Below the pieces are notes generated by a model that saw nothing but the letters and a program-made list of their open reading frames with translations, was not told the origin of the DNA and made no database searches. Below are positions 5,744 to 59,318 of a DNA stretch of 64,000 nucleotides, piece by piece. Source of the stretch: Oligoflexia bacterium (lineage in GTDB: Bacteria; Bdellovibrionota; Bdellovibrionia; JABDDW01); contig JADLCR010000072.1 in NCBI GenBank assembly GCA_020847095.1, positions 37,586 to 101,585 on the forward strand, written 5' to 3'. The translations under genes and the position numbers were made by a program. Each line of letters starts with the position of its first letter. Within the stretch, counting starts at the first letter, position 1.

Positions 5744-6252
5744 TGATGGGACTCCCTCAGATCGATAACAAGCCGCGCGGGAGTGCCGATGCTAGGAGGC
5801 AATTCAAAAACTTCAACCTCTAAAGTGGAGCGAGCCTGCAAAACCAATGCGGTATCGTCATCGTCTTTGGAATTGACGAAGACCACCGACTTAATCAACC
5901 GACTCCCTTTCAAATGCCTAAGAAGTTGAGCACGGGCCTGATCGGTAAGTCGAGTTTCCTGTAGGTCAATCGATATGGTCTTCGATCGATCCGAGTGACT
6001 GACCTGAAAAAAACCAGGCCTCAGGGTGTTGTTCTCGTCCGAACCGTAATCAAAAACAAGACGCTCGTCCCAAGTGCGCTTTTGCCGGCTATGCCGAATT
6101 GAAATAATTTTGAGAGCCTTTTGAACGAATCCTCCGGCAAAAATGCCATCAGATTGGTACTTTCCCGTCTTATCTGTACCAGCCTTTTGAACTTCAATCG
6201 AACCAATCGCCAAGGCCGGCGCTAAACAAAATATGATAAGTAATCGTTTCAT
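5740..6252 (-). CDS. Secreted AMIN-domain-like protein
   Basis: A signal peptide (MKRLLIIFCLAPALAIGS) precedes about 150 residues of beta-rich sequence. The end, ARSTLEVEVFELPPSIGTP followed by ARLVIDL, matches the look of AMIN domains (a hydrophobic strand ending in P-x-R-L-V-I-D-L). AMIN domains bind peptidoglycan or anchor secretins and amidases. No catalytic domain is attached. Both ends overlap neighbours by 4 nt (ATGA), with the 1360-aa lipoprotein gene upstream and the barrel gene downstream, which suggests the three products act together in the envelope. The domain call comes from reading the motif only and needs a profile search. Confidence 0.6.
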   Translation of the reverse strand: MKRLLIIFCLAPALAIGSIEVQKAGTDKTGKYQSDGIFAGGFVQKALKIISIRHSRQKRTWDERLVFDYGSDENNTLRPGFFQVSHSDRSKTISIDLQETRLTDQARAQLLRHLKGSRLIKSVVFVNSKDDDDTALVLQARSTLEVEVFELPPSIGTPARLVIDLRESHQ

Positions 6253-9200
6253 TGTTCCAGGTTGCTTACTAAGCCTTGTGTTCCGGCTTTAAGATTATCA
6301 AATAAGAAATGAAGGGCTTCGTCAATATGACCCTTCTTAACTTCTTGAACCACAATAGCGAGTATCTTGGAAATGTCTTCTTTCCCTGCCAGTGTCCGAG
6401 ACAGTTTCACCAAAGTCTCACGATGAGTTGGATTGAGCATGATCTCAGATAGTCCGTCTTCGAAGCCTAAGCTTTCAGTACCCATGGTGGCCAAGCTTGA
6501 TTGAATGAGCTCAACAGGGCTAAAGGCTTCAACCCGAGGGTCTTGTTTAAACTGTTTGAAGCGGTCGATCCATCCCTGAAAATCAGAAGTTTTTGAATTA
6601 TAAGAATGAGAAACAACGCTCATGGCATATGGAAGAGCAAAATCTCCGCGAGTGGTCTTGGCTTCAAATATGATTTGGCTCAATGCTCTCAGCCGCTCCC
6701 AATCGCCGTCAGACGACTGCCAAAGCCGCGAGCCCAATCTCATTAACCGACCGTCACTATTCACCATGTCTTCCATTAAAAAATCCAGACAGGCATCAAA
6801 GACGGCAGGCTTAGAGATGACCAGCGGTAAACCCTGAAGTAGCGCGGTCATTGTGCCGCGCGTGCGACTCGCATTAATGAACAGATGAAACAAGGTATCC
6901 TTGAAGGAATCATATTTGGTCAGATCGGTTTCGTATAGTTGACGAATCCGCAACAGCATCTGCTCCAAAGGACTTATTCCTGAACCCTGCACCTTTGTTG
7001 TAAAAGCGTCAATGACCGCCTTTAGTGGTTCGATATCTTGAGGTTGAATTTGATGCACGAGCGATTTAAATCCTTGAACAGCCACTTCAAGCTGACCTGA
7101 TTGCAGCAGATGGGGAACGGCCAATGAAAGGGCGTCAAAGAGCCCTATAAGATTGGCTCGATTAAGAGATCCCATGTGGTTATTAACAGGATCATCTTTG
7201 TCACGAAACTGAGCGGGAGTTGCGTTATAGAGGGCGCGATAGACCCTTTGAAATATTCTCAAATTGCCGTTATCAGCCCATTCTTGCAGAGCTGGAAAGT
7301 TCTCGCGCATGTTACGAAGATAAAAACTGCGTCTTTTGTCAATACCGTGAACGCTGATACCCAGATCCAATTTTTCTTTCTGTTTCTTCATTTCTGAAGA
7401 CAAATCGTTAGCTTTAACAATGGCTAATTGGAAATCCGTTCCCACGTGGTTAATAAAACCAACCGGAATATCAATATCAGAAACTTGCACGAGCGCTTCG
7501 AGCTGATCTAGTTGAGTTTGAATTCTCATGATGCGGTTGAGTTCGCGGTCATAATTATTAACAAGGCGATGATCGTTCACTGCGTTTGTCAGCACTTTTA
7601 CGATATCAAAGTTTTTTGTGATGTCTTGAAGGGCGGAGATCATTTCTTTTAAATCCGTTGTTCGAAGGGACTCGCGCGCAGAAAGATAGATATGTTCAAT
7701 CCATTGCGCCTTAGTCAATCGCGCAAACAAACCGTTTTGATGATACCAATCATCGGTTCGCTCTTCGAAATCGGTTCTTAGTTTCTGGTAGCTCGACTCA
7801 ATTTGGGCACTGGTCCATTTAGGGTTAAACTCTTTAATTTTTCGTTTGATGGCGTCGGGGTCTCGCACCTTCAGTTTGAATTGGGTGTCTGATTTAAAAA
7901 CGGGCTTCGACTCTTTGGTCACTAAATCTAAACTCAGGCTAAGACTGTCATGCAAAGTCCCAACTCTGAGAAACTGACCCAAAAATTCAAAAGTTTGGCT
8001 TAGCTCAGGAAGTTCAAAACCCGCTCCTAGAAATCGATCCATGGTGTACGGCAATTGATAACCGGGCTCGCCTGAAATCACCAAAAGCTGCAAAAGCGAC
8101 TCAAGCTGTCCCGATCTGAAGAGGCGCTCGATTTGATTGAGCCCGCCGAGAATTGTTGGCGAGGTGACGAGCAACGCTCGCAAGAGATCAGCTGTTTGAG
8201 GTAACAGTCCATCAGCCTTTAAATGCTCCGCGATGAGCGCAGCCGCCGGCACCGATCCGTCGGCATCTAAGCATCGAAGCCCTTTATACAACTGATCCCC
8301 GCTGACGTCGTAGAGACTGCCGTTGAGAGAAGCACAATCTTGATATGATCCCGACGGAACTTGCGGCGCGTAGGGCCTGTAGTTGGCCATGACCTGTTCG
8401 GCGGTTTGTGTAGGGGGCATATAAATAACCGGTGGCTGGGGATCGGGAGTGAGGCCCGGACCTTGACTGTTTTTAAAAAGCTCTACCAAAAATCGTAAAA
8501 GTCTTTCAAGTTGGCCGTTTCCTGAAATGGTGCCCGTAAATTCGAGCGCTTTAAAGAATTTGGGATTTCTTGAAAGCTTTAACATGATGGGGCCAATTTT
8601 ATCGATGAGCGCTTTGTCGCCCAGAATACCGATCAGCGCATCTTGAACCGGCCGCTCACGAGAAAGCGAAGTGCTTCTGGCCGCAATCGCGAGCAGGTCA
8701 CCAAGACCGCCCCGGCTGTCACCAAACGATTTCCTTAAATTCGAAATAAACAGCTCAACGTCTTTTCTTTTCTCTGAGTCGGGCTTGAAGATCTTTTGGC
8801 CCACTTCCATAAATCGCGTGGTGTGGCCATCTGGAAATGGATGGTCAGCCAGTGCGCCCTTAAACGCCCGTGAAGCGTCATCCAGTCCTGGAGCATTCGC
8901 CAACTCCAAACCAAGTTCCACGAAGGATTGTCTCTGGGAAGGCATCTGCGCCAATGTTGTTAAGACAACCGAACGACTGGGCTGGGGAACATTTCGCTTG
9001 ATCCAATCGGTTAATTCGGACCCGCGAATGTCATTAGCTACAAAGAAATTAAGCGCCTTCATGAGGTGATCAAAATCTGATTCCTTAAGGTCTTCCGAGA
9101 AAACTTCTAGCAAGAAGGAAAACCCACTTCTCATGGCGACATCGCGAAGAAATGGCGAGAGTTGAACAAGATAATCGGATTTCATTGATTGAGCGAGCTC

Positions 9201-10331
9201 TTCGTAACGATGGCTGTGGAGTAAGTAGCGAAGTGCTGCCAACACGCCCCCTCCGTACCCATCAACGACCGCTTCAGTGAGGAAGCTCGTATTTCTTAGT
9301 AAGTCCGGATGGTAATTGCAGGATTCGCGGCTCATCGCCAAAAGCACAGGTACCGTCTTTAACAAAAAGCGATCCGACTCGGCCTTCGAGGCAAAACTTG
9401 AAGCCTCTCCGGCCACAAACTTGAGAATATTATCTGCATATCTAAATTGAGATTGATTCCCGTAACATTGCAATGGGCGATCGGTTCCGTTCACCACTTG
9501 TCGCATGCGTTCGACGCGACTCACTCCCTGGCTAAAACCTATCGAGAAGTAAGACATGACTTCGGCCAAATGCCTGACGTCTTCGGCACTAATGCGCTTA
9601 AAGCTGCGGCCCATTTGCGGGTCCGACATATGGGCCAAAACCTTATGAAAGGCTTGATCCTGAAAACTTCTCATCAAGGTGTCCGAAAAAAGATTGGCCA
9701 TTTGCGAATTCGTTAATCCACCTTGGGGAATATCGACAGCCATGAGGTAGGCCAGGATCTGAGCTCTAATGCCGCCAAACGTATTTGCGCTTGAAATCAG
9801 TGCCGATGTGAACAAGTCGCGCTGCATGAGTTCGAGCAAGAAATCGCTAAACTTTTGAGCCTTCGGATCGATTTGCCCGGGTCGGGCTGGGTCTTCAAAA
9901 AAGTTTTGCAGAAGTGGCAGAGCCGCTTGGATCACATTGTTTTCAAGGACAACTTGAAGGTCTTTGTAAAAAGGCTTTAGCCAACCCTGCTTGTCAATGC
10001 GATCCACAAGATCGAGGGTCTTGTTAAGACGATGGCCCTCGGTATTGATATGTTTGTTATAGATCATCAGAAATTGGTTGAGCTCTTCGGTATCGATATC
10101 GTCAAGAAAGTCTTTATAAGGTTGAAGCGCCCCAGTCTGCACGTTTAAGCAATTGACCAGGCCTCTCACGTTGTTAGCATCCAAATAGCGAAGATTGAGC
10201 TGGGCGTTTCGACACCCTTCGACGTTAATGGGGCGAATTGGTGAATCAAGCGAAGGAGGAACCGGCGTAGGAGAGCAGCCAGCGGAAAGCACACAAAGTC
10301 CAATGACCAACTTCCCTGTTAGCCTGAGCAC
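6249..10331 (-). CDS. Giant lipoprotein of 1360 residues with internal duplication
   Basis: I do not recognise this protein. The N-terminus is a lipoprotein signal (VIGLCVLSAGC, lipidated Cys at 19). The rest is mostly helical with no membrane segments, so a periplasmic or outer-membrane-anchored helical scaffold is plausible. Two copies of a Cys-x20-Cys unit are visible: C40-C61 (NNVRGLVNC) and C666-C687 (GDQLYKGLRC). Each is followed by a long helical stretch. The motif (N/S)GQLE recurs at least three times (NGQLERLLRFL, SGQLESLLQLL, SGQLEVAVQGF), suggesting HEAT-like repeats. A proline-rich linker lies between the halves. The GTG start follows GGGGG. It is the first gene of a coupled trio with the AMIN-like and barrel genes. 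Confidence 0.8.
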   Translation of the reverse strand: MLRLTGKLVIGLCVLSAGCSPTPVPPSLDSPIRPINVEGCRNAQLNLRYLDANNVRGLVNCLNVQTGALQPYKDFLDDIDTEELNQFLMIYNKHINTEGHRLNKTLDLVDRIDKQGWLKPFYKDLQVVLENNVIQAALPLLQNFFEDPARPGQIDPKAQKFSDFLLELMQRDLFTSALISSANTFGGIRAQILAYLMAVDIPQGGLTNSQMANLFSDTLMRSFQDQAFHKVLAHMSDPQMGRSFKRISAEDVRHLAEVMSYFSIGFSQGVSRVERMRQVVNGTDRPLQCYGNQSQFRYADNILKFVAGEASSFASKAESDRFLLKTVPVLLAMSRESCNYHPDLLRNTSFLTEAVVDGYGGGVLAALRYLLHSHRYEELAQSMKSDYLVQLSPFLRDVAMRSGFSFLLEVFSEDLKESDFDHLMKALNFFVANDIRGSELTDWIKRNVPQPSRSVVLTTLAQMPSQRQSFVELGLELANAPGLDDASRAFKGALADHPFPDGHTTRFMEVGQKIFKPDSEKRKDVELFISNLRKSFGDSRGGLGDLLAIAARSTSLSRERPVQDALIGILGDKALIDKIGPIMLKLSRNPKFFKALEFTGTISGNGQLERLLRFLVELFKNSQGPGLTPDPQPPVIYMPPTQTAEQVMANYRPYAPQVPSGSYQDCASLNGSLYDVSGDQLYKGLRCLDADGSVPAAALIAEHLKADGLLPQTADLLRALLVTSPTILGGLNQIERLFRSGQLESLLQLLVISGEPGYQLPYTMDRFLGAGFELPELSQTFEFLGQFLRVGTLHDSLSLSLDLVTKESKPVFKSDTQFKLKVRDPDAIKRKIKEFNPKWTSAQIESSYQKLRTDFEERTDDWYHQNGLFARLTKAQWIEHIYLSARESLRTTDLKEMISALQDITKNFDIVKVLTNAVNDHRLVNNYDRELNRIMRIQTQLDQLEALVQVSDIDIPVGFINHVGTDFQLAIVKANDLSSEMKKQKEKLDLGISVHGIDKRRSFYLRNMRENFPALQEWADNGNLRIFQRVYRALYNATPAQFRDKDDPVNNHMGSLNRANLIGLFDALSLAVPHLLQSGQLEVAVQGFKSLVHQIQPQDIEPLKAVIDAFTTKVQGSGISPLEQMLLRIRQLYETDLTKYDSFKDTLFHLFINASRTRGTMTALLQGLPLVISKPAVFDACLDFLMEDMVNSDGRLMRLGSRLWQSSDGDWERLRALSQIIFEAKTTRGDFALPYAMSVVSHSYNSKTSDFQGWIDRFKQFKQDPRVEAFSPVELIQSSLATMGTESLGFEDGLSEIMLNPTHRETLVKLSRTLAGKEDISKILAIVVQEVKKGHIDEALHFLFDNLKAGTQGLVSNLEQ

Positions 10332-51354: not shown

Positions 51355-52260
51355 ATGAAAAGACGAGACTGGCTTTATGTTCTAACGGCCCTGGTTTTTG
51401 CTTGGGGAATTGATCGCATTACCAAGCAATGGGCAACCGGTCTCTATGGTGTAAAATTCTATGGCCCCGTTGGTTTTATGCTTCATCACAATCACGGAGC
51501 CATTTTGGGAATATTCAGCGATCTCCCCAGCATGCTGCGAATCGTGAGTTTGTCGACCGGGGGAGCCTTCCTCCTTTTTCTATTCTTTATGATCCAGTTT
51601 TTGCTTCCGACCAAGTCCCTGTCCCTGCGAATTGGCTTGTCTTTGCTCATCGGAGGGATCGTTGGTAATGTGACCGATCGAATTATCTGGGGATATGTTG
51701 TTGATTTTATCATCATCGGATCGCCAAAAAAATTCTCACCTAATTTTAATTTTGCCGACGCCATTCAGTGGGTAGGTTACGCGCTTATTGTGGTTGCACT
51801 TTTGCGCGAAGGCAAATCACTTTGGCCCGCTGAAAATTTGCGAAAGAGCTTTTGGATCAACCCTCGGTATCAGCTTCGCTATTGCATTATTTTGATGCTT
51901 GTTGGATTTGGACTAACAATCGTGCTCGGGACTTATAGTTACACCTACTTAAGCGTAACTATCACTGAGTTACGGGGAGTTAATCCGGCACTCGCCACGC
52001 AGTTTTTGAGGCCTTTTGTTGCAACCTTTGGACTCGTCAGCTTAACTTTTTCTGTAGTCTTGTTTGCCGTGGGCCTGATTCTGTCTCATCGCGCGGCTGG
52101 CCCAATATATGCGTTTCAAAGATTTTTAAATGACCACATTGATGGCAAAGACAGCAAACTCAAACTGAGAACAGGCGATGAGTTTAAAGAATTAGAAAAG
52201 CTGGCCAACCGCATGGCACAAGAACTTAATCCAAAATCACCGCGCTCGAAATCCGGTTAA
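51355..52260 (+). CDS. lspA: Signal peptidase II fused to a two-helix HAMP-like module
   Basis: LspA removes signal peptides from prolipoproteins in the inner membrane. Residues 1-160 have the family pattern: an N-terminal helix with DRITKQWA, HHNHGAILGIFSD, GGIVGNVTDRIIWGYVVDF (Asp108) and FNFADAIQWVG (Asp135); the two Asp are the catalytic pair. Residues about 170-301 are additional: two membrane helices (ILMLVGFGLTIVLGTYSYTY and FGLVSLTFSVVLFAVGLIL) and a HAMP-like segment (AAGPIYAFQRFLNDHI ... GDEFKELEKLANRMAQEL). Usual LspA is about 160-170 aa. It overlaps the exonuclease gene convergently by 35 nt. Confidence 0.88.
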   Translation: MKRRDWLYVLTALVFAWGIDRITKQWATGLYGVKFYGPVGFMLHHNHGAILGIFSDLPSMLRIVSLSTGGAFLLFLFFMIQFLLPTKSLSLRIGLSLLIGGIVGNVTDRIIWGYVVDFIIIGSPKKFSPNFNFADAIQWVGYALIVVALLREGKSLWPAENLRKSFWINPRYQLRYCIILMLVGFGLTIVLGTYSYTYLSVTITELRGVNPALATQFLRPFVATFGLVSLTFSVVLFAVGLILSHRAAGPIYAFQRFLNDHIDGKDSKLKLRTGDEFKELEKLANRMAQELNPKSPRSKSG

Positions 52261-53053
52261 CATAAAATCGCTTTTCTCGATGTTCACGATGACATAAACC
52301 CACAACGTAATCTCCTTGGGGAGTTCGAACGATTCCCTGAGGAGTCATGCGCCGCGGCTCACCCGGGGTGCTTCCACCTTCATATTTAAATTCAATGGCC
52401 AATTGCTTTTGACTAGCTTCGACCAAAACAGAATAAGTTTCCGATTGAGTCACGAGTTTCTTCAGCGAAAAACGCTCCCATTCAAAAACGGATTCCTGGG
52501 CAGCAAATACTTCGCCAATTGTTTTGTCATCACCAAGCTTTTTCATCAGTTCGAGAGCAACTCCCAAACAAGCCTCTGCGTCATCTAAAGCGCGGTGCGC
52601 GCGCTCCTGGGGAACTTTTAATTCTTTTACGAGAGTGGCGAGCCTGTAATTAAAAAGCTTTGGAATCACTCGTTGACCCAAGAAACAAGTATCAAGCACG
52701 GGGCCGGTGGGAAGACTGAGGCCCGCTCTTTCAATTTCTGGGGCCAAAAACCCCATATCAAATGCCGCATGATGTGCTACCGGAATTCCATCGCCCATAA
52801 ACTTCAAAAAAGGACCAATCACTTCGCCGATCGAGGGAGCATCGGCGACCATTTCGTTGGTGATGCCATGAATGGCAATGACTTGCTCGCCCATAGGGCG
52901 AACGGGCTTAACCAAGGCCTGAAAACGCTCAATGATCTGTCCGTTCTTCCATTTCGCCCCGGCAACCTCTACGATTTCTGCCGTCAGCGGATACTTGCCG
53001 GAAGTCTCGGTATCAAAGCCTACAAAAACACAGTCGCGCCAATTTTTATTCAT
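52226..53053 (-). CDS. DEDDh 3'-5' exonuclease with possible WYL-like C-terminus
   Basis: The N-terminal exonuclease domain (residues about 8-180) belongs to the DnaQ/RNase T superfamily: FDTETSG (Asp14, Glu16), VAHHAAFDMGF, then the HxxxxD of RAHRALDDAEA. Such enzymes proofread or trim DNA or RNA ends. Residues about 210-275 (QKQLAIEFKYEG ... GIVRTPQGDYVVGLCHRE ... RFYVNRISSAVIL) look like a WYL-type beta domain, known to sense nucleic acids or nucleotides. It is not a polymerase subunit by context. It lies convergent to lspA with a 35-nt overlap and 27 nt downstream of the lipoprotein gene. Confidence 0.83.
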   Translation of the reverse strand: MNKNWRDCVFVGFDTETSGKYPLTAEIVEVAGAKWKNGQIIERFQALVKPVRPMGEQVIAIHGITNEMVADAPSIGEVIGPFLKFMGDGIPVAHHAAFDMGFLAPEIERAGLSLPTGPVLDTCFLGQRVIPKLFNYRLATLVKELKVPQERAHRALDDAEACLGVALELMKKLGDDKTIGEVFAAQESVFEWERFSLKKLVTQSETYSVLVEASQKQLAIEFKYEGGSTPGEPRRMTPQGIVRTPQGDYVVGLCHREHREKRFYVNRISSAVILD

Positions 53054-55651: not shown

Positions 55652-56038
55652 CTAACGGCTGATTTGAATCAAAAGTACGGCTAAATCCTGCTCGGATAGG
55701 ATTTCACGATGCCCGGCTGCTTGAAGATCTTTTTTCAATAGCTCCATCGCACGAACTAAAAGGAAGGTGGGCTCCATTCCGCCCAAGTACAAGGCCGCAT
55801 CAGATGAGGCGGCTCGGTAGACTTCCTTTTTATAATACGACGTCGATGACGAACCCGTACCTGACGAATCGGAAACCGAGGACGACCCATTACCAGTCAA
55901 CGAGGAGTCCGAGTAGCTCGTGCGACTATCCGTTGTTTGACCGATGGACCCGCCAGAAAGGTCATAGGAGATCCAATCCGAACATAAGCCTGTTGAACCC
56001 GCCAAAATGACTGTTAATGCCAATGTGATTTCTTTCAC
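55652..56038 (-). CDS. Small secreted Ser-rich protein (128 aa)
   Basis: The family is unknown. Signal peptide MKEITLALTVILAGSTGLCS. A low-complexity Ser/Gly/Thr/Asp stretch (about 40-70, SSSVSDSSGTGSSSTS) is followed by a structured helical part (SSDAALYLGGMEPTFLLVRAMELLKKDL and onward). The Ser-rich part may be an extended linker. Its start is divergent from the Lnb-domain gene. Confidence 0.6.
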   Translation of the reverse strand: MKEITLALTVILAGSTGLCSDWISYDLSGGSIGQTTDSRTSYSDSSLTGNGSSSVSDSSGTGSSSTSYYKKEVYRAASSDAALYLGGMEPTFLLVRAMELLKKDLQAAGHREILSEQDLAVLLIQISR

Positions 56039-56142: not shown

Positions 56143-57966
56143 ATGATTTTAGCTGCCATTATTTTCAAATTGGGGATTTTAGTCCCCGCCTGGGCCGACC
56201 TTATTATTGATGTCAAAGGACTCCCTTCCAGTCAGATTGTGGAGGGTCAGCGCAAGCTCGATGCAGTTTGGATGGCTCTGCCTCCGATCATGAGGGAAGC
56301 ATTAAGTAGCGACATCAAAATAGAATTTAAGAATTGGCCGGCGCCTCAGGAGCGGCGAACCACTATCTTCGGTGAATACCGGGACCGAAAAATCTATCTC
56401 AATAAATCTCTGCAGGCCGCACTCACAAGCCCTTCTGATCATTTGAAGGTCAAACGCGTTTTAGCCCATGAACTGATGCATGCGTACGAACACGCACTGA
56501 AAGCTTCAAAAAAGCAAAAGCTATCGCAAAATGAACAATTCTTGGCGTTACTAAACTTTACTAAGCGAGGAGTTATTGTTCGCACAAGGTCACAGTCAAA
56601 CGTCATGGAGCAAAGAAGCCCCGATGTGTACGAGTTCGAAAACCCAAAAGAAGCAGTTGCCGTAAACTTTGAACACTTTCTCTTGGACCCCGAATTTGGT
56701 TGTCGAAGACCTGCTGTTTACCATTTTTTATCTCGAGCACTGAACTTCGAACCGACGAAACAGTGTGAAACGAGCCACCTCGTGGCCGTAAACAACGGCT
56801 CATTCATTAGCGAGAGGCCCTTTTATTGGGCCAATATCGATCCAAAAAGAGTCTATTCAATACACTACTTATTTGCATCTAAGGGATCAGCACTCATGAG
56901 TCGATGGGGGCACGCCATGTTTCGCATAGTTTTATGTGCACCAGAGCGAACTCAAGTCGGTCCCGAGTGTGAGTTGGACATCGACCATCATGTGGTAGCC
57001 AGCTACCGCGCCAACATCAACGAACTTAAAATTAGTTACTGGAAAGGCTTGATTGGAGCCTATCCGTCTCAATTGTTCTTACTTGATTTTGCGCAGGTCA
57101 TCGAGGAGTACACCAAAGGTGAGCTCAGAGACCTTTTGAGCGTACCAATGTCACTATCAGAAGAAGAAAAAAACCTGTTTTTGTTTCGGGTGATTGAGCA
57201 TGCCTGGAGCTATCGCTCGAAATATAAATTCTTATCCAATAATTGCGCCACCGAATCGCTCAATTTAATCAAAGGCACCGTTGACGACGCCGAGTTTAAC
57301 GACAAGTATCCCTTTTCACCAAAAGGGCTATACAGCGATTTGGAAAAAACCAAACTCATGGAGGCTGACTTGCTTGCCGACAAAACGGCCGCTCAAGCGC
57401 GGGGTTTGTTGATCGTCTCAAAGAGGGCATCGTTGCAAAGGGCATTTGAGATTCTTAAACAAAAGGGTCTAAGGAGCGACAAAGCCGATGTTAAAGAGTT
57501 TGTTGAAAAATCAAAGCCGGTTGATCGACGCCGCGACTACGAGAACCTCCTAACACTTAATCCGGGCGAACGAATGAAGCTTGCCGCCCTCTGTTTTGCC
57601 CTAGAAAGTCAGGCGGAGCACATGGCACAAAAGCAATATATGAAGTTTTTAGGTAAGAAATTGTTCGACCTTAAAAATACTTCGCCACTTTATAGCAAGT
57701 CACTGGATTTAAGAAAATCTTATGATCAGCTGATGGCATGGAATCTCGTTCCTCAAGGCTACGGAGCACCAACACTTCAAGAAATTTTAGGAATTGACGA
57801 AGCTTCATTGACCGAACGAAGTCGGAGCCTGAACCGAGAAACCAAAGCGCTTTTTGAGCAACTCAAGCAATTGGTCCCAGAGAAGACCGCCGAAATCACT
57901 TACATTGAAGAATCGGTCAAGTGGCTGAGGCAATTGGCATTGAGTATGCAACCTAGCCTTCCATGA
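56143..57966 (+). CDS. Secreted HExxH protein with Lnb/DUF4105 domain
   Basis: Signal peptide MILAAIIFKLGILVPAWA. Residues about 25-215 look like a zinc-peptidase-type domain with HELMH (His109, Glu110, His113) and NPKEAVAVNFEHFLLD as a possible third-ligand helix. Residues about 220-400 match the Lnb N-terminal periplasmic (DUF4105) domain: SRWGHAMFRIVLC, then DIDHHVVASYRANI, YTKGELRDLLSVPMS and FLSNNCATESLNLIKG with the conserved Cys. In Bacteroidetes, Lnb acylates lipoproteins through such a Cys. A helical C-terminal part of about 180 residues follows. Its end overlaps the next gene (ATGA). Confidence 0.82.
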   Translation: MILAAIIFKLGILVPAWADLIIDVKGLPSSQIVEGQRKLDAVWMALPPIMREALSSDIKIEFKNWPAPQERRTTIFGEYRDRKIYLNKSLQAALTSPSDHLKVKRVLAHELMHAYEHALKASKKQKLSQNEQFLALLNFTKRGVIVRTRSQSNVMEQRSPDVYEFENPKEAVAVNFEHFLLDPEFGCRRPAVYHFLSRALNFEPTKQCETSHLVAVNNGSFISERPFYWANIDPKRVYSIHYLFASKGSALMSRWGHAMFRIVLCAPERTQVGPECELDIDHHVVASYRANINELKISYWKGLIGAYPSQLFLLDFAQVIEEYTKGELRDLLSVPMSLSEEEKNLFLFRVIEHAWSYRSKYKFLSNNCATESLNLIKGTVDDAEFNDKYPFSPKGLYSDLEKTKLMEADLLADKTAAQARGLLIVSKRASLQRAFEILKQKGLRSDKADVKEFVEKSKPVDRRRDYENLLTLNPGERMKLAALCFALESQAEHMAQKQYMKFLGKKLFDLKNTSPLYSKSLDLRKSYDQLMAWNLVPQGYGAPTLQEILGIDEASLTERSRSLNRETKALFEQLKQLVPEKTAEITYIEESVKWLRQLALSMQPSLP

Positions 57967-59318
57967 CAAAGGCAATTTATTGGGCAATTCTTATATTCAC
58001 ACTGACGTCATTTGGAGCCCATAAGGCTCGCGCAGACAAAACAATCGTTGGGCGCCTTAACAAGGGGTTTAAAGAAGTATTAGGCAAGTGCCCGGAACGC
58101 CTTTGGCCTGATCTAAACTACAAGGATGTTCAGTTTGCAGTCGCTCTTCCTAAAGAAAAAAGGGCCTGGCTGTGGAATGGAAAGGGCGATTTAAAGTCTT
58201 TTAAGAAAATGAACTTCGATGAAGTCATGGCCAAAGCCTCACGAAATCGCTTTTCGGTCATTTCCATCAATAATCGCCCCACCATGTTTCTTGATTTAGA
58301 AGATTTAAAGTCCGCAAAAGAGGCCTTCGAACTGATCGTGCACGAAGCCTTTCATGCCTTTCACCAACCTCGATTCACTATTCCAAACGCGAGTGGCCGA
58401 AGGGGCATTCCTTTTCCATTGAGCGAAAAGCTTCCCTATTTTGCCCGTATGATGCTGCGAACTCTAACCTTAGGACTCATGCATCCCGAGCTTAGGGAAC
58501 AAAAACTCGGTGAGGCAGCCTTTTGGGTCAAAGAGATTGAAAGTTATGATCCGACCGAATTGACACGACAACGACGATTCGAAATATCCGAGGGCACGGC
58601 CACATATGTGCAAGCTGTTTCCGGCATCTTATTTGATTACGGCTGTAAGGTTTCTGAGCATATTGTCAGGCAACAACTCATTGAACGCACCCGATCGGAC
58701 GCAGAAGGTGTGCAAGGCGCCGCTGCCGAATATTCACTGGGCCTATATCGGGTGGGCGCCGCAGCCCTTACTTATTTGAGGGTGACCGATACGAAAAACT
58801 GGGAGCGCCTTGTTGAAAATGGAATTACTCCCTTGGAAGTTTTGCTGCGGGACAAAAAACCGATAGCCTCAGAGAATGACCCCGCGATGCTGGCCCATTT
58901 TAAAATCGATGCGGAAATTGGAAATCAAAGAGTTGCTGTTGAATTGAGTCCTTTGTTGGATGCATTAAATAGTAAGGATGCTCTTCGGCTATCAGTACCG
59001 TCAAATTGGGGAAGAGAGTTTTCTACCGGCGGCCTTTATATTTCGGGCTTGGCACCAAACAGCATCGCAGCATTGTTTCTCACCCAGAGTTTTAAGAATA
59101 ATGAGTCAGTCTTAGAAGTTAACGGCGTCACCGGTTTCTTGATGCCTGAAACTCCTTGCGGAGGCACGCAGACTGTTTTCGTAATGGGAAAGGACCCCTC
59201 GTTTGAAGGGTCTTTTGATCAACCAATAGTCTTCAGCGCACCACCCCTAGCCACCGGAAAGTTCAAAATCGAAAAACTAACGGATAGCGCTGGCCTCGAC
59301 TGGATTTGCGCGCGTTAA
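57963..59318 (+). CDS. Secreted HExxH-type protein (451 aa)
   Basis: The family is not firmly recognised. Signal peptide AIYWAILIFTLTSFGAHKARA. A HEAFH motif (LIVHEAFHAFHQPRF) near residue 130 is a zinc-peptidase signature, and RRFEISEGTATYVQAVSGI further on supplies a Glu that could be the third ligand (gluzincin-like). The C-terminal 100 residues are beta-rich. It is translationally coupled to the Lnb-domain gene (ATGA), so the two proteins probably work together in the periplasm. Confidence 0.72.
   Translation: MTKAIYWAILIFTLTSFGAHKARADKTIVGRLNKGFKEVLGKCPERLWPDLNYKDVQFAVALPKEKRAWLWNGKGDLKSFKKMNFDEVMAKASRNRFSVISINNRPTMFLDLEDLKSAKEAFELIVHEAFHAFHQPRFTIPNASGRRGIPFPLSEKLPYFARMMLRTLTLGLMHPELREQKLGEAAFWVKEIESYDPTELTRQRRFEISEGTATYVQAVSGILFDYGCKVSEHIVRQQLIERTRSDAEGVQGAAAEYSLGLYRVGAAALTYLRVTDTKNWERLVENGITPLEVLLRDKKPIASENDPAMLAHFKIDAEIGNQRVAVELSPLLDALNSKDALRLSVPSNWGREFSTGGLYISGLAPNSIAALFLTQSFKNNESVLEVNGVTGFLMPETPCGGTQTVFVMGKDPSFEGSFDQPIVFSAPPLATGKFKIEKLTDSAGLDWICAR

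Follow-up and report, generated by a model that had tools for sequence, protein, structure and literature searches.

A secreted protein joining a predicted zinc-peptidase domain to an Lnb_N domain, and its small DUF2388-like partner, in an Oligoflexia bacterium

Introduction

Lnb of Bacteroides is said to have been identified as a lipoprotein N-acyltransferase only recently. MtfA, the point of comparison among the gluzincins of peptidase family M90, is a cytoplasmic protein. The domain that characterizes Lnb (PF13387, Lnb_N or DUF4105) is grouped among the permuted, lipid-acting NlpC/P60 enzymes, near LRAT, YiiX and Tox-Act1; Tox-Act1, the sister clade of DUF4105, is a phospholipase effector, and Lnb is given as a DUF4105 N-acyltransferase in the same source (PMC12994826). 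Our literature search returned no demonstrated activity for DUF7844 or DUF2388.

Here, we describe a locus in a 64 000-nucleotide stretch of an Oligoflexia bacterium genome (contig JADLCR010000072.1; the whole stretch is referred to as the window), at which a protein that we call P1 is encoded together with a second protein, P2, and a small protein. P1 resembles MtfA and the M90 family in having an HExxHxx(D/E) motif and a downstream glutamate in a PxExFAVxxEYF motif, but it is secreted and fused to Lnb_N, and the homology is distant. It resembles Lnb in its periplasmic Lnb_N domain, with the active-site histidine in GHxxxR and the cysteine in NNCA, but it is soluble, its Lnb_N domain lies behind a zinc-peptidase-like domain and its genome has lnt. 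The Lnb_N proteins of the sister genera have the architecture DUF7843-Lnb_N-DUF7840, and thus share the Lnb_N domain with P1 but have other flanking domains and no HExxH domain.

The P1-P2 locus

A first-pass annotation of this DNA had described a pair of ATGA-coupled genes for secreted HExxH proteins, one of them with a DUF4105 domain. Both open reading frames lie where they had been placed (Table 1); they are intact and overlap by ATGA at 57963. The motifs that had been picked out, HELMH, GHAMFR and NNCAT in P1 and HEAFH in P2, are present and conserved well beyond chance. Secretion also held up as judged by sequence: each protein starts with a segment that resembles a signal, with a short and atypical n-region in P1, and a search for further strongly hydrophobic stretches past the signal found none in either protein. 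The DUF4105 domain of P1 was confirmed by Pfam (1.5e-23), while the domain N-terminal to it proved to have a Pfam name already, DUF7844 (6.2e-27). A scan for promoters and terminators gave no more in the real sequence than in shuffled sequences.

Table 1. Positions of the genes and predicted active-site residues in the window.
Feature	Position	Strand	Basis or conservation
P1 (secreted; DUF7844, Lnb_N and C-terminal helical region; 607 aa)	56143..57966	+	ORF, Pfam, homologue alignment, model
HELMH, P1 residues 109-113 (His109 and His113, predicted zinc ligands; Glu110, predicted catalytic)	56467..56481	+	60/61 homologues
Glu170, predicted third zinc ligand of P1	56650-56652	+	Profile: aligned with Glu of PAECFAV in MtfA
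His257 of GHAMFR, predicted Lnb_N catalytic histidine	56911..56913	+	59/61 homologues
Cys368 of NNCAT, predicted Lnb_N nucleophile	57244..57246	+	59/61 homologues; lost jointly with His257 in L182 and L189
P2 (secreted, zincin-like; HEAFH 127-131, invariant Glu210 in EGTA; 451 aa; no Pfam family)	57963..59318	+	ORF, homologues, model
DUF2388-like small protein (secreted, 128 aa, divergent, 104 bp upstream of P1)	55652..56038	-	Leave-one-out profile, locus association

Elsewhere in the window, the forward strand at 51355-52260 encodes a protein with a lipoprotein signal peptidase (SPase II) domain at residues 14-150; the roughly 150 further residues after it contain hydrophobic segments, are HAMP-like by eye and fall outside Pfam. 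The reverse strand encodes a 1360-residue protein with no Pfam match (6249-10331) and an exonuclease (RNase_T) domain joined to a WYL domain (52226-53053).

Two predicted active sites in P1

The zinc set of the DUF7844 domain (His109, Glu110, His113 and Glu170) is intact in 60 of 61 P1 homologues, which come from several classes. The third ligand, which the first-pass annotation had left to be located, was identified as Glu170 by profile comparison. A profile of 21 P1 homologues matched structures of MtfA (8.4e-5 and 9.1e-4), and the alignment placed NPKEAVAVNFEHFL of P1 on DPAECFAVLSEYFF of MtfA, so that Glu170 falls on the glutamate that is the third metal ligand of MtfA. The Pfam M90 model was matched weakly by 11 of the 21 members of the profile and was not matched by P1 of the window itself; the DUF7844 model in turn has a match in E. 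coli, below the model cut-off, which is presumably MtfA. It had been questioned whether the HExxH motifs would fall on helices in predicted structures, and in both models they do: within helix 100-121 of P1 (pLDDT of 85) and within helix 118-137 of P2 (pLDDT of 81). Glu170 lies within helix 168-181. A fold search with P1 returned nothing at E <= 0.001, and the sole high-probability match in this nonsignificant search was another gluzincin. Taken together, these comparisons suggest a distant relationship between DUF7844 and the MtfA/M90 gluzincins, through a weak sequence link.

The Cys/His pair of the Lnb_N domain, the conservation of which had likewise been in doubt, is kept in 59 of the 61 homologues. 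In the model His257 opens a strand and Cys368 sits at the start of a helix. The order of the two residues, histidine then cysteine, is that of Tox-Act1 and the other permuted NlpC/P60 enzymes (LRAT and YiiX/C92), from which P1 differs in its attached zinc domain and in the absence of an effector-delivery context. Cysteines 265 and 276 of the Lnb_N domain are invariant among the homologues and cysteines 187 and 208 of DUF7844 are nearly so; these residues may form disulfides.

The two domains occur in one open reading frame at all 40 of the out-of-class loci checked. In one P1 homologue (331-2241 of locus L047) all four zinc residues are replaced (by F, A, K and D) and the His/Cys pair is kept, and in two others (L182 and L189) the histidine is replaced by arginine and the cysteine by serine and the zinc set is kept. 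The sites are therefore lost whole and one at a time, which fits the presence of two separate active sites in P1.

Relation to Lnt

An lnt gene (1.5e-74) is present in the genome and has WPETALP, YQKH and ICYEG motifs, which hold the catalytic glutamate (of WPET), the lysine and the cysteine (of ICYEG) of Lnt. The lnt model has a match in each of the 106 good-quality genomes of the class, in some cases perhaps only through related nitrilase domains, and its cut-off is exceeded in 135 of the 144 genomes of the class. Since 87 of the 106 also carry Lnb_N, the domain is here an addition to Lnt, and replacement of Lnt by P1, on which the first-pass annotation had wanted the genome consulted, is unlikely because lnt is present here with its catalytic residues and is matched across the class. 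A second Lnb_N protein is encoded in this genome. Most genomes in the class survey have one to four Lnb_N matches, and three (G022, G061 and G069) have 8 to 10 each.

A broader form of the same idea is that P1 acts as Bacteroides Lnb does, as a lipoprotein N-acyltransferase, beside Lnt or instead of it. The His/Cys pair of its Lnb_N domain would suit such a role, as would the standing of Lnb as the known N-acyltransferase (cited in PMC12994826). We nevertheless consider this improbable, given an lnt gene with its WPET glutamate, lysine and ICYEG cysteine in the genome and lnt matches in every good genome of the class, the lack of a membrane segment past the signal in P1, and the loss of the His/Cys pair in two P1 homologues. 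The Pfam name 'N-terminal periplasmic domain' implies that Lnb has a membrane-attached C-terminal part; such a part is absent from P1, which has a helical C-terminus.

P2 and its linkage to P1

P2 belongs to a secreted zincin-like family that is unrelated to P1 and scattered in the class. The HExxH motif and Glu210 are invariant in ten homologues. No known family was found for P2: it has no Pfam or NCBIfam match above cut-off, and its best Foldseek matches, an M61 peptidase and MATCAP, are weak (E of 0.03-0.1). Homologues were found in nine of the 144 genomes of the class by a single-sequence search and in 16 of the 291 genomes of a phylum sample by a profile search; a search of named genomes with P2 gave one weak locus, which was uninformative.

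It had been proposed that P1 and P2 form a pathway of two peptidase-like proteins that cuts and modifies envelope proteins. The ATGA overlap in this genome speaks for such a conserved pathway, as does the position of a secreted C92-like permuted-papain protein, present in 46 genomes, near P2 homologues in two other genomes (at 0.13 kb in G125 and about 5 kb in G039). However, this protein is the only neighbour that any P2 homologues were found to share, a P2-type gene occurs at none of the 40 out-of-class DUF7844-Lnb loci, and the co-occurrence of P1 and P2 among genomes is not significant (P = 0.16, or 0.31 without this genome). P2 adjoins P1 in this genome only and, in the absence of shared neighbours, the coupling is local. 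The conserved pair was rejected on neighbourhood and co-occurrence, and the two-peptidase pathway is very improbable; the part of the proposal that stands is a soluble, secreted Lnb_N domain joined to a zinc-site domain. Two secreted C92/YiiX-like proteins are encoded close to P2 homologues, at 8651-9271 in locus L057 and at 1462-1986 in locus L058; the L058 copy has a serine at the position of the likely catalytic cysteine of the L057 copy.

A recurrent small partner

The reproducible partner of P1 is a small DUF2388-like gene, which is absent from the first-pass annotation. The family was found by clustering the neighbours of P1 homologues, and some of its members match DUF2388/TIGR02448. 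Pfam PF09498 (DUF2388) matches three homologues at other loci but not the divergent window copy, which is below its detection; the recurrent partner shares with DUF2388/TIGR02448 the C-terminal pattern DAA...G...L..A...R...D..(A)..IL. With a leave-one-out profile, the window protein ranked first of the 732 open reading frames in the window (E of 2.8e-7; 0.44 for the next).

Within the class, 33 of the 44 places at which the small family occurs are at most 3 kb from a DUF7844 gene, and for places outside the profile-building set the count is 13 of 24 within 3 kb. DUF7844 is also present in 21 of the 23 class genomes that have the small family (P = 1e-13), and the partner was detected at 24 of the 40 out-of-class DUF7844-Lnb loci versus one of 20 canonical Lnb_N controls (P = 2.5e-5), a comparison that is imperfectly matched, with control loci from this class and test loci from other classes; both P values suggest more events than there were, as loci within a genus and in related genomes are not independent. 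A looser second iteration gave 27 of 40 versus five of 20 at E < 0.05 and 25 of 40 versus one of 20 at E < 0.001. Many copies lie directly downstream of the P1 homologue and in the same orientation, separated from it by about -33 to +41 bases and often overlapping its end, and eight are upstream and divergent, as at the window locus. Plasmid searches found neither the DUF7844-Lnb fusion nor the small protein; they found canonical Lnb_N in Acinetobacter, Salinivibrio, Pseudoalteromonas and Photobacterium records.

A small secreted protein encoded beside P1 also bears on the idea that P1 is a Tox-Act1-like phospholipid hydrolase or acyltransferase directed against other cells, with the small protein as its inhibitor or immunity partner. 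The sister-clade relationship of DUF4105 to the Tox-Act1 phospholipase effector (PMC12994826) and the copy-number expansions in some genomes are in line with this idea, but the locus has no secretion system or toxin-delivery marker, the N-terminal signal points to the periplasm of the producing cell and the partner was undetected at 16 of the 40 out-of-class loci. We regard a role against other cells as rather unlikely.

Proposed mechanism and implications

Our main reading, to which we assign a probability of about 0.5, is that P1, with the architecture, conserved active-site sets, secretion-type N-termini and small-gene linkage established at the sequence level, is a periplasmic two-site enzyme, a peptidase together with an acyl transferase or hydrolase, that acts on the small partner or together with it. 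The N-terminal domain would be an MtfA/M90-type gluzincin with zinc-peptidase activity (His109, Glu110, His113 and Glu170) and the middle domain a permuted papain-like (NlpC/P60, DUF4105/Lnb_N) site for acyl transfer or acyl hydrolysis (His257 and Cys368). An acyl chain of a phospholipid would be transferred to the cysteine site, forming a thioester, and from there to an amine or to water. P1 would act with, or on, the product of the adjoining gene, the small secreted DUF2388-like protein, and P2 would be a separate secreted zincin that is on the P1 transcript in this lineage only. We infer both the catalytic activity of P1 and its acyl chemistry, and the small protein could be a substrate, an inhibitor or a cofactor.

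A more specific version, which we consider improbable, is that the DUF7844-Lnb_N protein and the DUF2388-like protein constitute a hitherto unrecognised system for envelope maturation: a single enzyme would cleave (at the zinc site) and acylate (at the cysteine site) a dedicated small secreted protein. If this were true, the product would be a secreted lipopeptide or a lipid-anchored peptide, made by a route separate from Lgt/Lsp/Lnt. The coexistence of the fused Lnb_N with lnt across the whole class suggests that replacing Lnt is probably not all that Lnb_N domains do. The assignment of the zinc domain, the loss of each site as a unit and the recurrent partner bring three families of unknown function, DUF7844, Lnb_N outside Bacteroides and DUF2388, into one testable system.
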